Below, one piece after another: positions 4,157-54,807 of a stretch of DNA of 56,030 bases (its first letter is position 1; each line of letters opens with the position of its first letter). A program made the position numbers and the translations under genes. The stretch is from a virus. Below the pieces are notes generated by a model. It ran no database searches and was not told the origin of the DNA. It was given only the letters and a program-made list of their open reading frames with translations. The stretch lies in IMG/VR virus record IMGVR_UViG_3300030380_002075, positions 1 to 56,030 of that record, one strand, 5' to 3'.

Positions 4157-4412
4157 TGTGTTCTACCCACTCTTCTAGTCCCTCGATACCCGATACTTTC
4201 TCAAGAAAGATCGGCGTGTATGAGCCTATATAAGCACCCATTACATTAAAATTCATATATTCGATAGCCTCCCAAAGGTCACAGTCTAGGCTTTTCTGCA
4301 AAACCTCTATCGACTTCTGTATGTCATACACCACAACGGTTGGTTCTCCACAACGGTGTGCAACGCCAATGATGGCATCATCAAGCCCATCTGCTTTCAG
4401 CATCTTTGTCAA
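4146..4412 (-). CDS. Conserved phage hypothetical protein (TTG start)
   Basis: An 88-aa acidic protein of a type common near phage replication genes (pattern LKADG.DDAIIG ... EYMNFNVMGAYIGSYTPIFL). Function is unknown. The proposed start is TTG at 4410-4412, inside the primase stop (TTTTGA) with GAGGG about 9 nt upstream; an ATG three codons later lacks a well-spaced ribosome site. The TTG start and overlap suggest translational coupling to the primase. Confidence 0.75.
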   Translation of the reverse strand: MTKMLKADGLDDAIIGVAHRCGEPTVVVYDIQKSIEVLQKSLDCDLWEAIEYMNFNVMGAYIGSYTPIFLEKVSGIEGLEEWVEHNED

Positions 4413-5941
4413 AATGGTGTACCCTCTTGATTAAATTTAGGTTTGAGTTCAACGTCTGCCGAATCAAAGCTTGGTATCGCCCACACTCGGACAGCCCGTC
4501 CTTTGATCTTGAGTACAGTGCTTTCGCCGCTTATGTCTCGTAAACGTTGCGCGATCTTATGTGACTTAAATTCAAAAAATTTATTCTTGCGTAGGTGCGC
4601 TTCAAAGTCTCGCAACCGAAAGTACGTGATGTTTGCGTCTTCATCTGTCCAAGGTCGGCGGAGCAAGATCTCTTCTTTGTCCTGCGCTTGTTGTAGGTGA
4701 CGGCAAAACTCTTCCAGATAGTCATAAAACTGTCCTGACGTGGAGGCATCCTGCGATACCTCCATGATGGCGCTCTCGTTGTCTCGCATCTCACCCATTA
4801 GAGTGCTAATCCGGCTCTCCCAATTCTGTTTCGTGGTAGTCCGCGGCATGAAATTAAGCTGTTCCATACACGCTTTTTGAAAAGTTGCTTGCGATAAGAG
4901 CGCGTCAGTATCGAGTTCCAAAGGCTCCCCGTTAATGTCCATAAACCAGACAGGCGGTGTCGAGTTGTATTTGCGGAGATTCGCAATCGCGGCACCCGAC
5001 GCCGCCGTCGCAATACCGAACTTGCGCGTTTGGCAGAGGTCCTTGTTACAATGGGCACAGATCGGCGTGTCTGAACAGCGGTATGCGTAGTCTTTCTTTT
5101 CAAGTTGTTTGGCGACAATGTTGACTTCATTGAGCGGTAAGGGTGGTTCCAGATACTGGGCATTGTACTCAAGAATTTTGCTTTCCCATTCGTCGGGATG
5201 CGCTTTCCGTAAGTAGACCCCCAAATTAAATAGCCCATTATTTCTACCCCCTTCTGATATTTTTTCTTTACACAAATACTGTAAGCACGGCGGTCCATCT
5301 TTAACGATAATACTGGACTCTTCTGACTCTTTGGTTAATGTGTCAATTTGCTCTGGCGTCTGAACGTGCGTGTCATATAGCGAGTAGAATTCTTCAAGCG
5401 TTGCCGAGGTGCCGTCGTCTTGTATTGCGTAGCGTAAGCCGTCCTCTGCGTTGTAATACGGCAGATTTAGAAAGTTACCGATGTCTCCACGATCAAGATG
5501 TAGCTTGACTTGCTTCGGGAAAATTTCACTATTACCGTAGCCAAGCGAGGTCGATATCTTTTGCAGGGTTTCCTGCATTTGTCTCGCTGTAATCCATTCG
5601 GTGACAAACAAAAAACAATGAGCGCCACCAGATTTTGAACGACAGACAACCAACGGTATCCGAGCCTGCCGAATCCGTGTAATTAAATCGGTGTGATCTA
5701 GCGGGTACTGGTCGATGTCTATACAGCCCCATTTGACATGGTTATCCTCGTTAATCGGGATAATCCCAATGCCTTTTCCCTCACCAGACAGATGCCCTTC
5801 CCAAAGATCTGTAGTGCGTGGTTCCCGTATGACTGCCGCTTTACCCGCGTTCTTCCCGTTCTGTGTCTGTTTTTCTATTTTAAACGTGCCGTAAGCCTGC
5901 TGTAGGCCGTCAAAGATGGCACTAAACTTTTCGACTGACAT
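4409..5941 (-). CDS. Archaeo-eukaryotic-type primase with PriCT-like and Cys-cluster region
   Basis: A 510-aa primase of the AEP superfamily, similar to the TOTE-conflict type. The catalytic DxD is D75/D77 in CIDIDQY, motif II is SGGAH (104-108), and the conserved GNFLNLPY segment is at 155-162. A primase C-terminal helical region begins near GRNNG (232-236). A Cys cluster at C289, C295, C298 and C303 probably binds zinc. It would prime synthesis for the family A polymerase; primase-polymerase activity cannot be excluded. It lies between the SSB-like gene, from which it is separated by a terminator hairpin, and the small DUF and HTH genes. Confidence 0.9.
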   Translation of the reverse strand: MSVEKFSAIFDGLQQAYGTFKIEKQTQNGKNAGKAAVIREPRTTDLWEGHLSGEGKGIGIIPINEDNHVKWGCIDIDQYPLDHTDLITRIRQARIPLVVCRSKSGGAHCFLFVTEWITARQMQETLQKISTSLGYGNSEIFPKQVKLHLDRGDIGNFLNLPYYNAEDGLRYAIQDDGTSATLEEFYSLYDTHVQTPEQIDTLTKESEESSIIVKDGPPCLQYLCKEKISEGGRNNGLFNLGVYLRKAHPDEWESKILEYNAQYLEPPLPLNEVNIVAKQLEKKDYAYRCSDTPICAHCNKDLCQTRKFGIATAASGAAIANLRKYNSTPPVWFMDINGEPLELDTDALLSQATFQKACMEQLNFMPRTTTKQNWESRISTLMGEMRDNESAIMEVSQDASTSGQFYDYLEEFCRHLQQAQDKEEILLRRPWTDEDANITYFRLRDFEAHLRKNKFFEFKSHKIAQRLRDISGESTVLKIKGRAVRVWAIPSFDSADVELKPKFNQEGTPF

Positions 5942-46529: not shown

Positions 46530-46940
46530 CCTAGGCCGCCGGATCGCGCTCGATCTGCCAATTTTTCCGGTTTAGCCTCGATTGGCAGGGGGACCCGAAA
46601 CCACGGACCACGGCCCACGATTATCCACAGACGGCCAGACTTGACCTGTGGATAACTTTCGATTTTATCCACAAGGTTAAGTGGTTGAAAGTATGGGAAA
46701 AACGCAACCCCAGGTCCGCATCGCTGCAACTAGTTTTATCCACAGAAAAACGCGCATAGATTCGTTGCCTTGGTAACTGCCGGTCACGCGCCCCGATCCG
46801 CTGGCCACGATCCCCGATCCGGTGCGCTCGGTGTACGTTAAATTTTGACGTACAAGAAACATACAACCACGCGCCACGATCCCCGATCCGCTCCGATCCG
46901 GTGCGCTAACCACTGGCCAGTTATTCGCGGTGCAGGGATC
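46530..46940. other. Putative replication origin: DnaA boxes, GATC cluster, direct repeats
   Basis: Four perfect DnaA boxes (TTATCCACA) lie at 46621-46629 (+), 46647-46655 (-), 46665-46673 (+) and 46736-46744 (+). Nine GATC sites fall in about 400 bp. Two direct repeats follow: GCCACGATCCCCGATCCG (46804-46821, 46873-46890) and CGATCCGGTGCGCT (46815-46828, 46894-46907). An inverted repeat TGTACGT/ACGTACA (46832-46854) flanks an AT-rich spacer. The stretch 46409-47039 holds no convincing gene. Confidence 0.65.
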
Positions 46941-50891: not shown

Positions 50892-51335
50892 GTCCCAAAG
50901 TGATTTCCAGTCAAACGGCTCAGTCAAACGAATTACTGGCTCGACTTTAGATATGCCTTCCATTTTCAGATCGAGAGCGTCGTATCCGCGATACAGAAGT
51001 ATTTCCGGTTCAGATGTACGGGGCTGTCTTTTAACAAGCACCCAAGTTGAAGCATGGCTATGAATATTAAGAAAGGCCACTTGGTGCGGCCGCAGATCGA
51101 CAGTGTTCCCTTTAGTCACCTTTAACTCGATCAGATGTAGTGCTCCTTGGTCATCACAAACTAAGAGATCGGGTATGCCTGCGGTCAACCAAGTCTCTAA
51201 TCGAGTCAATATTAACTTGCGGTCAAGCTTCTTCGCCCCGTCCCGAATTTGTCTGTAAAAGTTGCTCTCCGTCGTGTTGGTCTTCTTCTTGGTCGCTTCC
51301 TCCCATGGGAGTAACGTCGATGATGTTTGACTCAT
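50874..51335 (-). CDS. VRR-NUC-like PD-(D/E)XK nuclease
   Basis: A 153-aa nuclease. ESNFYRQIRDGAKKLDRKLI is followed by the catalytic core GIPDLLVCDDQGALHLIELK (PD ... ELK), the PD-(D/E)XK signature as in VRR-NUC/Holliday junction resolvase-like enzymes. It may resolve branched DNA before packaging. It lies next to the small terminase gene and overlaps its end by 113 nt in another frame, with both readings coding. Confidence 0.82.
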   Translation of the reverse strand: MSQTSSTLLPWEEATKKKTNTTESNFYRQIRDGAKKLDRKLILTRLETWLTAGIPDLLVCDDQGALHLIELKVTKGNTVDLRPHQVAFLNIHSHASTWVLVKRQPRTSEPEILLYRGYDALDLKMEGISKVEPVIRLTEPFDWKSLWDLICSH

Positions 51336-51813
51336 AGGTATCTCTTAATTCGTCTAAGGCTTTCATAACTTCTTCTTTACTCATTTGGTCAATCGAGCCA
51401 TGTCGTATTTCAGATTTACTGACGTAGATGTCTCCTTGAGCTTGACCTCGACGATACTCCGCTTGAACTGCGGCAGAATAAGCCCCGTTCTGAATAGCTA
51501 AGTCCCGAATGTTTTGTAGATCCCGAACATGACGCTGATAAGTAATGCCATATTTGGCGTCCAGTTCATCTCGATATGCTTTGATTGCCGCCACAATATG
51601 CGGACAGATCAAAGGGTTTGTCATTTCATACGCTCTGGTATGTGCGCTTGAGGGCGGAAATCCCGCGTTGATAGCGGCTTCTCTCATGGTTATCTGGCCG
51701 TCGTTGCTAACAAGCTCCTTAACAAATAGCTCCTGACGGCGCGTAAGTTTTTTACTTCTTAGCTTATTTAGCTTGTCTTTATCTGCAACGGCATTTCGTT
51801 TAGTTCTAGGCAT
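51223..51813 (-). CDS. terS: Terminase small subunit
   Basis: A 196-aa DNA-recognition subunit of the packaging motor. KKLTRRQELFVKELVSNDGQ ... REAAINAGFPPSSAHTRAYE then NPLICPHIVAAI is the helix-turn-helix of the terminase_2 family. The middle is coiled coil and the tail acidic. The first 25 nt of its mRNA fold into a hairpin that includes the GGAG ribosome site. It is separated from TerL by the origin-like region and several accessory genes. Confidence 0.8.
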   Translation of the reverse strand: MPRTKRNAVADKDKLNKLRSKKLTRRQELFVKELVSNDGQITMREAAINAGFPPSSAHTRAYEMTNPLICPHIVAAIKAYRDELDAKYGITYQRHVRDLQNIRDLAIQNGAYSAAVQAEYRRGQAQGDIYVSKSEIRHGSIDQMSKEEVMKALDELRDTYESNIIDVTPMGGSDQEEDQHDGEQLLQTNSGRGEEA

Positions 51814-51819
51814 TCAAGT

Positions 51820-51879
51820 CTCCGACAGTTAAAAGCAGTATCGGAGATAAAATATAGTCCCTTTTCTTATATAGAGCAA
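51820..51879 (-). promoter_or_regulatory. Promoter and ribosome-site hairpin of the TerS gene
   Basis: -35 TTGCTC (51874-51879), 17-bp spacer, -10 TATATT (51851-51856). The leader pairs CTCCGA (51841-51846) with TCGGAG (51820-51825), burying GGAG, the TerS ribosome site 6 nt before its ATG. Confidence 0.6.
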
Positions 51880-51940
51880 AATTCAAAAAATATTTTTTTG
51901 ACCAAGACCCCCCGCTAACGCACTTTTGATTCTTTGATTT

Positions 51941-52190
51941 CTTGGTTACATATTTATGGTTACATGGTGTAACGGTTTATGTAACTGCTGAAAGTATTGA
52001 TACATATAGTATAGAGCGATTTGGTTACACGGTTACACCGGTTACGGGTGTTTTTCGTAAAAATATTTTTTCTAATTTTCCTGCTATATAAGTAACGTGC
52101 GTTTTTTGTAACCCAAAAAAGAAAAGCCCCGTGAGCCGTGGCCTACGGAGCCTGATCCTTTGTTACGCAATCTGTAACGGTTACACCGCG
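51941..52190. repeat. Cluster of nine GTTACA/TGTAAC iteron-like repeats
   Basis: GTTACA occurs at 51945, 51959, 52024, 52032 and 52180, and its complement TGTAAC at 51968, 51980, 52107 and 52173, plus near copies (GTTACG) at 52041 and 52162. The last pair makes a perfect palindrome TGTAACGGTTACA (52173-52185). The stretch is AT-rich and non-coding, upstream of TerS and behind the 445-aa gene. Confidence 0.75.
52125..52152 (-). terminator. Terminator of the 52205 gene
   Basis: GGCTCCGT pairs with ACGGGGCT (one or two G-T pairs) around a 12-base loop, followed on the minus strand by TTTTCTTTTTT. It lies within the iteron-like cluster. Confidence 0.7.
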
Positions 52191-52204
52191 GGCTGTTTTT
52201 CCTC

Positions 52205-53542
52205 CTAACCTGCTTTTTTATTTACAAGATGATAGTCGTGAATAATTGTTCCCAACTTGGCATCACCTGCCCAGTATGGTTGAACCCATTTACGCTTGAT
52301 TAACCCGCTTTTATAGTGAATTGTTCGCCAGTGACCACGTCTCAAGTGTTTACGCTGACGGGTTATGCACTGTTTGAATATCTTTCCATACAGCTTGACC
52401 CCCGCATCTTTGGGTAGGTTGATCTCGACAACCTTTACCTCGTTGATGGGCTCGTGCAATACCAAATGCTTTTCGATATCGTCGTTGTCCACGATCTCTA
52501 TGTCGCGCTCTACTTCACGTTGATAGTTCAATAGACCAAGAACCGCAATTACGAAACGTAAGTCCATGGCCCACGAATGTCCATCAAGCCATTCCGAAGA
52601 AGGAGTTCCGTTGTTTATAAAATTTATGTAATCTGCTTGCCAGTTACTGGCATATCGATCTTTTGTAAGTGGAGCAAACAAATGCTGACAAAAGCCAAAT
52701 CGTAAAAACAGCCCGTTCAAGAAAGCCTTTTGAGCTTTTTTATTCGAGTAATAATCAACATATTCTTGTGTTAATATTTCTATACCTCTCTTTTCTGTAG
52801 AGTGCTTTTGGTAGTCCTCCCTCGACATGGGTTTTCCGGTACGAAAGTCGATTAGCAGTCTTTCATTAAGCTCTCTTTCCTCCTCACCATAGGAAAACAA
52901 AGCTCCACATTTGGGTGCTATAAGTGTTTGCTCGTTTGACTCAGGACGGTGAATAAATTTATGAAGCTCAAACCAATTATTTTCAAAACCCATCCGTGGG
53001 GTGAGGCGGTAATCGGGATACCATTCTGGATTAATGGTTCTTTCGCGTACCCTTTTAGCCCTTTCTTTTGGACTGGCTTGTTCAGCTTCAAACTGGTTAT
53101 AATTTTCCCAACCAACCTTCTGTATTAAATAACCAAATCGTACTCCCGTCATCTCTCTACTAAACCCCGGATCCCATTCAATCCACATCGAATTAAATGC
53201 GGGAATGCCTGTCATGAACGCATTCAATAAATCTTTTGGCGGCATCTCACAGGCCTCTATAGCGTGTTCAATCAAGCTTTGCCCAATGTTTATCTTGGTT
53301 GCGTTTTGAAAAATGTTATGTGTTTCTCTGAGGAGAAATTTTTCTCGTCCTTCAAAGTTTTTACACATCTTCTTAATAGCCTTTTTGTCCCCCTGCTCCT
53401 TCAGGTTCAGTACATCTGTGTCATAAAGTTTAATAGCCGCCGCTACTGCCTCTGATCTAGAACGTTTACCAAACGCTTTGTGAAAAGACGTTAAGTTTAT
53501 CGACGCTTCGCTAATCGCGTCGTGTGTTGGATAATTGCTCAT
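52205..53542 (-). CDS. Unrecognised 445-aa protein with basic C-terminal domain
   Basis: A 445-aa protein of unknown family. The first ~120 residues are helical; the middle has RLTPRMGFENNWFELHKFIH and a Cys/His-containing stretch. The last ~70 residues are basic (RQRKHLRRGHWRTIHYKSGL), with KRKWVQPYWAGDAKLG, a small domain that recurs in phage and plasmid proteins. It is adjacent to the GTTACA cluster, so a DNA-binding or initiator role is a reasonable guess. It overlaps the upstream gene by ATGA. Confidence 0.75.
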   Translation of the reverse strand: MSNYPTHDAISEASINLTSFHKAFGKRSRSEAVAAAIKLYDTDVLNLKEQGDKKAIKKMCKNFEGREKFLLRETHNIFQNATKINIGQSLIEHAIEACEMPPKDLLNAFMTGIPAFNSMWIEWDPGFSREMTGVRFGYLIQKVGWENYNQFEAEQASPKERAKRVRERTINPEWYPDYRLTPRMGFENNWFELHKFIHRPESNEQTLIAPKCGALFSYGEEERELNERLLIDFRTGKPMSREDYQKHSTEKRGIEILTQEYVDYYSNKKAQKAFLNGLFLRFGFCQHLFAPLTKDRYASNWQADYINFINNGTPSSEWLDGHSWAMDLRFVIAVLGLLNYQREVERDIEIVDNDDIEKHLVLHEPINEVKVVEINLPKDAGVKLYGKIFKQCITRQRKHLRRGHWRTIHYKSGLIKRKWVQPYWAGDAKLGTIIHDYHLVNKKAG

Positions 53543-54391: not shown

Positions 54392-54569
54392 TTCTACAAT
54401 TTAACTCCGCTACTAGCATGGATCTCTTTGGGCGATACGAAGTATCCAGAACATAATACTTGTTATTTTTATTTTTGAACATGCGGTGCGTGAGCCGTGA
54501 TTCGCGGACTAGGAAGTCCAGTTCTTCCATTGCGTCCAGTGGATTGTCGAACAGTGTTGCGCTAGTCAT
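54252..54569 (-). CDS. Hypothetical protein overlapping the next gene
   Basis: A 105-aa protein: an acidic N-terminal half (LFDNPLDAMEELDFLVRESR) and a basic Lys/Arg C-terminal tail (EKVRQSKIGKKEKTT). Only the first ~60 residues lie outside the 140-nt overlap with the 54134-54391 gene. It begins inside the regulator's stop (TATGACTAG). Frameshift between the two frames is an alternative reading. Confidence 0.5.
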   Translation of the reverse strand: MTSATLFDNPLDAMEELDFLVRESRLTHRMFKNKNNKYYVLDTSYRPKRSMLVAELNCRNVEGNSAINARRGEKVRQSKIGKKEKTTCGLYQHTAPSRGKKRDRS

Positions 54570-54759
54570 AGACGTTTATCCGACGGGGATCTTTCTTGTT
54601 TCCATACCGATGTTGCTTGTCGAAGCCCTGCTCGATGTACGTTTCAAAGATCAGGCGCAGTTGTCCGGAGATAGTTCTGCCATCTTTCTGAGCAAGATCC
54701 TTAATTTCCTCGTATACGTCACGGGGAACAAGCACACTTTTCCAACGTTGTGTATCCAT
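54562..54759 (-). CDS. Ribbon-helix-helix (CopG/Arc-like) regulator
   Basis: A 65-aa protein. MDTQRWKSVLVPRDVYEEIK (strand, then helix A) and DGRTISGQLRLIFETYIEQG (helix B) follow the ribbon-helix-helix fold of Arc, MetJ and CopG, which bind as dimers to short symmetric half-sites. It has its own strong promoter (TATAAT) and AAGGAGGGG 4 nt before the ATG. It is the best candidate for the protein that binds the TGCG-N5-CGCA sites repeated in the accessory promoters (inference). Confidence 0.75.
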   Translation of the reverse strand: MDTQRWKSVLVPRDVYEEIKDLAQKDGRTISGQLRLIFETYIEQGFDKQHRYGNKKDPRRINVYD

Positions 54760-54778
54760 AGGCCCCTCCTTATCTGCG

Positions 54779-54807
54779 ATTATATGCGAATCTATGCGAA
54801 CATACAA
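54779..54807 (-). promoter_or_regulatory. Promoter of the RHH regulator with triple TCGCA half-sites
   Basis: -35 TTGTAT (54802-54807), 17-bp spacer, -10 TATAAT (54779-54784). TTCGCATAG, TTCGCATAT and TCGCAG half-sites follow at about 10-bp steps across the promoter, as expected for self-regulation. Confidence 0.7.

Follow-up and report, generated by a model that had tools for sequence, protein, structure and literature searches.

A switching repeat array beside terS is a probable replication origin, with the winged helix of the phage's own primase as its proposed reader

The word repeated in an array upstream of the small terminase gene (terS) of an environmental virus was found to covary strictly, at individual word positions, with residues 476 and 478 of the phage's archaeo-eukaryotic primase (AEP). 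Judged from the comparison of sequences, the element is most probably a replication origin, with iterons that would be bound by the C-terminal winged helix of the phage's own AEP primase. Replication origins are unknown for most phages seen solely in metagenomes, and here one array and one alignment yield a likely origin together with its likely reader. The virus is IMG/VR record IMGVR_UViG_3300030380_002075, and the window analyzed is the whole stretch of 56,030 bases.

We counted nine exact copies of GTTACA/TGTAAC in both orientations, as the initial annotation had reported (starts at 51945, 51959, 51968, 51980, 52024, 52032, 52107, 52173, and 52180), and 12 GTTAC/GTAAC cores in total across 51945-52185. 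Local dinucleotide shuffles of 51941-52190 gave a mean of 0.36 copies and a maximum of 4, and 0 of 5,000 shuffles reached 9. The expectation of about 0.1 copies given earlier was therefore slightly low, while the conclusion that the word is enriched stands. This is the strongest 6-mer clustering anywhere in the window (nine copies, with seven for the runner-up). The stretch had rightly been described as AT-rich and non-coding (38% GC over 51814-52204 compared with 46.5% in the whole window), and the palindrome TGTAACGGTTACA that had been pointed out lies at 52173-52185. A search of the element against RNA families returned no match, and GC skew gave no informative signal, with no switch at the array. 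A second hexamer cluster, of seven CGATCC/GGATCG copies, is located at 46794-46936 between the large terminase gene and a Kyano_Gp96-like gene, and similar clusters were also seen in four other genomes (G001, G003, G009, and G011).

The actual repeat word was found to be YGTAACC (GGTTACR on the plus strand), in a fixed arrangement of three direct copies, spaced by 9 and 8 bp, followed by inverted copies. The element extends past the cluster noted at the outset, since inverted A/T-rich arms carrying TATATA are located at 51863-51910 and 52046-52095 and form an inverted repeat with an 80% match between them. Its core (51863-52095, no strand assigned) is thus an imperfect inverted repeat of TATATA arms and A/T tracts around a central word array, a layout common to the relatives. 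On the terS side, the arm at 51863-51910 (minus strand) consists of an A/T tract and CTATATAA, some 60 bp ahead of where terS starts, and could plausibly also serve as the -10 of a terS promoter. The distal arm (52046-52095, plus strand) is its inverted copy, with an A/T tract and CTATATAAG. Between the arms lie the core triple of direct copies (52023-52046, minus strand, GTAACCGGTGTAACCGTGTAACC) and an inner group (51944-51986, no strand assigned) with GTTAC at 51945 and 51959 and GTAAC at 51969 and 51981. Outer copies at 52092, 52108, 52162, 52174, and 52180 (52092-52185, no strand assigned), which include the palindrome, are less well conserved than the core. A terminator-like hairpin with a T run (52118-52150, minus strand; hairpin at 52125-52137 plus a T-rich tail) follows the gene of a 445-aa protein. 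As in iteron-type origins, a specific word is directly repeated several times within an AT-rich region.

Relatives were collected from IMG/VR by their TerS; most are metagenome contigs, among which chimeras are possible, yet the pattern recurs over many samples and clades. The array was observed upstream of terS in almost all of these relatives, and the core triple in 195 of the 204 with enough upstream sequence. Read on the terS strand, the layout opens with a TATATA arm and an A/T tract. Three direct words follow (spaced by 9 and 8 or by 9 and 9) and then, after a spacer, the inverted words; a second A/T tract and TATATA arm lead up to terS. Across 191 loci the triple starts at a median of 228 bp upstream of the terS start codon (interquartile range 218-233), the arms are separated by about 217 bp, and TATATA is found in the left (distal) arm in 176 loci and in the right (terS-proximal) arm in 184, compared with a background of 0.042 per 90 bp. 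At least two inverted copies besides the triple are present in 161 of 190 relatives. The locus's own word is 16 times denser inside the element than elsewhere in the locus, and each genome has a single such array. A 41-base exact terminal repeat in a 59,977-base record of a relative (L093-L095) is consistent with a circular map.

The array word switches in concert across the relatives. Because the bare 5-mers GTAAC and GTTAC are reverse complements, we defined word classes relative to the triple, whose frame is fixed, as YGTAACC vs YGTTACC. In this frame the 4-base core was GTAA in 110 of the 195 loci, GTTA in 49, GGAA in 20, GGTA in 9, and GGGA in 7. Conservation in relatives, which the initial annotation had proposed as a check, was thus strong, though it took the form of concerted word change. 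Mixed arrays, with one GGTAC among GTTAC copies or with GTTAC beside GTAAC, were seen in four loci (L225-L227 and L209) and are possible intermediates of switching. Pelagiphages of the HTVC023P type have arrays of their own before terS (L090, 7590-7890; L270-L349), in which the word likewise switches, here between CTAGGAA, CTAAGAA, CCAGGAA, and CTGGGAA. In phage 023Pt_psg01 (L091, 7559-7769), A/T tracts and a TATATAG arm accompany seven copies of TGGCACA, and terS is on the opposite strand. Within open-licence literature, a term search of the available portion of the HTVC023P-type phage paper returned no mention of such repeats.

To find the reader of the word, we took every neighboring gene family and searched its alignment columns for residues that vary with the word and remain constant as long as it does. 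The conspicuous column was residue 476 of the phage primase. Among 49 training sequences the rule held in all: V in 34/34 with GTAA, L or T in 8/8 with GTTA, Q in 2/2 with GG(T/G)A, and K in 5/5 with GGAA. It also held in 14 of 14 new loci that were found via the primase and not via terS, several of them near-copies of one another. We constructed a tree of 55 primases without the C-terminal part, on which the word changes 15 times and residue 476 changes 16 times; the rule fits all 55. Seven of seven independent, well-supported pairs agree (sign test, p=0.016, for GTAA/V vs the rest). Of 45 close pairs with different words, 42 also have different residues at 476, which is true of 0 of 40 close pairs with the same word; the three exceptions are all pairs of GGGA with GGTA, both with Q. 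The primases of L395 (GTAA) and L393 (GTTA) differ at only four residues, including T475M and V476L. These counts cover the window-type relatives and exclude the pelagiphages, where too few contigs carry both primase and array.

Residue 478 was found to follow base 6 of the word, with K in 48/48 sequences that have mostly C/T and R in 7/7 that have mostly A/G, as counted in the set in which the pattern was noticed. Two sister viruses illustrate this: G023 has R478 with GGAACA, and G024 has K478 with GGAACC. This coupling is separate from that of residue 476. The pairing of V, L, or T with T at base 2 and of polar Q or K with G at base 2 would be chemically sensible.

The proposed reader is a primase of 510 aa (4409-5941, minus strand) with an AEP-TOTE domain (Pfam, E=6e-12), a PriCT-1-like region (PriCT_1, E=4e-4, just below the cut-off), and a C-terminal winged helix; its structure model matches the Prim-Pol fold. 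It has no fused helicase, the helicases being separate genes. The proposed origin-binding domain comprises residues 405-510 (4412-4729, minus strand), for which a structure model of moderate confidence (106 residues, pLDDT 73) predicts helices at 39-48 and 56-65 and wing strands at 69-75 and 78-86. Residues 476 and 478 (codons of 476-478 at 4508-4516, minus strand) fall in the first wing strand of the model. As positions i and i+2 of a strand they share one face, from which V476 would contact word bases 2-3 and K478 base 6. The wing of the distant relatives HTVC023P and HTVC027P does not align with that of window-type primases. In a further lineage (L421-L464), the primase is 39-40% identical and has a related C-terminal domain.

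Other candidate readers were rejected. The VRR-NUC-like nuclease adjoining terS is identical in L079 and L076 despite their different words, and the ribbon-helix-helix protein (54562-54807) has an identical core across the pairs L050/L061 and L134/L157. The latter family, retained across much of the lineage, has an almost invariant KWKSVLVP strand. No column equal to primase 476 was found in the helicases, PolA, or the two adjacent replication genes, and none tracked the word in the same way in the DUF932 and GP88/DUF7227 proteins or in the 257-aa and 195-aa genes. For the helicase, at 99.6% identity, exclusion came from the column test and not from identity. Some families with apparently low identity turned out to be mixed families rather than a signal.

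The array hugs terS and, should the map be circular, is about 8.6 kb away from the primase gene, a location that a role in regulation or packaging would fit as well. A pac/cos-like packaging site with a word read by TerS would explain the fixed position adjoining terS in hundreds of relatives, and the pac site of P1 is likewise a hexamer cluster. However, TerS (196 aa, 51223-51813, minus strand; phrog_51, E=1.1e-10) is unchanged across word switches, so it does not read the word: L079 (GGTAC) and L081 (GGGAC) share an identical 214-aa TerS, and TerS is also identical between L139 (GTTA) and L083-L086 (GTAA). Contig ends close to the element are scattered, with no pile-up at a single point. In a pac/cos site TerS would set the specificity of the word, and here it does not; this reading, one of those offered by the initial annotation, is refuted for the word and, as an explanation of the array, very improbable. 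No TerS relatives were confirmed in bacterial genomes. The chance that the word is bound by the neighboring 445-aa protein is close to nil. This orphan (52205-53542, minus strand) has no Pfam match; it is real, adjoins the array, and has a basic C-terminus, as the initial annotation had stated. The importance given there to the adjacency did not hold up, because another gene is found at that place in L010-L014, relatives whose word is the same and whose TerS proteins are 95-96% identical. Homologues of the protein are rare (six loci), and neither it nor any other upstream neighbor is universal, other genes replacing them in relatives. Almost every relative has a gene of its own upstream of the array, which makes the slot (52205-53542 in the window) a gene-replacement hot spot and the 445-aa protein a chance neighbor.

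The main rival to the origin reading assigns the same binding to an operator, by which the primase winged helix would control, instead of the start of replication, the terS/late promoter (right arm) and perhaps also a divergent one (left arm). A constant distance separates the array from terS just downstream, in nearly all relatives the right TATATA precedes the start of terS by about 60 bp, and the genes downstream of the array are the late genes through the tail. Against this, the left arm faces unrelated, codirectional genes in most relatives, a similar array is present in 023Pt_psg01 even though its terS is inverted, and no sigma-70-like promoter scored above chance at the element. Primases are not known to act as late regulators, which also counts against an operator, and we regard this explanation as unlikely. 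Alternatively, another phage or host protein might read the word while the primase residue hitch-hikes. The genes compared were fewer than all genes of all genomes, and in the 195-aa neighbor of the primase one column reaches 0.81, based on few pairs. Yet the same residue recurs at many switches, the pattern is chemically sensible and sits within a predicted DNA-binding wing, two separate couplings of residue and base are present, and the near-identical primases of L395 and L393 differ mainly in the wing. We therefore consider hitch-hiking very unlikely.

The covariation, its location in the predicted wing, the possible likeness of the modeled domain to TcpK, the single array per genome, and the AT-rich arms argue for a replication origin. 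The (second) origin suggested by the initial annotation was the closest of its three guesses and is supported in that residues of the phage primase vary with the word. At such an origin, the primase winged helix would bind the repeated YGTAACC, with its wing inserted into the major groove, and thereby bring the primase to the origin. The A/T tracts and arms beside the iterons may then melt, and primer synthesis would begin at the adjacent A/T-rich arms. More broadly, it seems rather probable that, in a large lineage of environmental phages, an AEP primase serves as the phage's own origin-recognition protein with a two-residue wing code, and that the repeated, concerted switching of word and residue amounts to a change of replicon-compatibility group, perhaps as an escape from competition or interference in co-infection. 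An explicit amino-acid-to-base code follows from the more than ten natural switches, and one domain with a few oligonucleotides would suffice to test it. This raises the question of why the lineage keeps changing its origin password while the neighboring terminase stays identical.

In P1 pac, lambda cosB, and SPP1 pac, short words likewise cluster close to the gene of the small terminase, and there the terminase reads them; in the window lineage, unlike these, TerS stays identical as the words change. The nearest solved fold to the primase C-terminal domain was TcpK bound to oriT (probability 0.99, TM 0.52, yet E=0.025 and 11% identity). TcpK, of plasmid pCW3, uses a wing in the major groove to read tandem nine-nucleotide boxes GGAACTTTA in oriT (PMC6137059). 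It is a free conjugation protein and not part of a primase, and its boxes are spaced by 12, compared with 8-9 in the window array. An AEP primase combined with a C-terminal winged helix is also found in pRN1 ORF904, PolpTN2-like proteins, and PrimQH, and origin recognition has been proposed for that domain (PMC5862659; PMC4234260). That proposal comes from structure, and pRN1 has a stem-loop and not iterons; the window primase differs from this type in that its nearest Pfam family is AEP-TOTE and in that it lacks a fused helicase. Phage P4 alpha is a priming protein whose winged helix binds repeats at ori/crr, according to the part of PMC4234260 that cites Yeo et al. 2002. The window primase would resemble it as a priming protein with a winged helix, on a model of moderate confidence. 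P4 alpha is a Toprim (bacterial-type) primase that unwinds DNA itself, whereas the window has an AEP-TOTE primase with separate helicases, so that a chain of Toprim and helicase is absent, and the window word differs from the P4 repeats and switches. By analogy, P4 alpha offers a precedent for a primase that docks on origin repeats via a winged helix.
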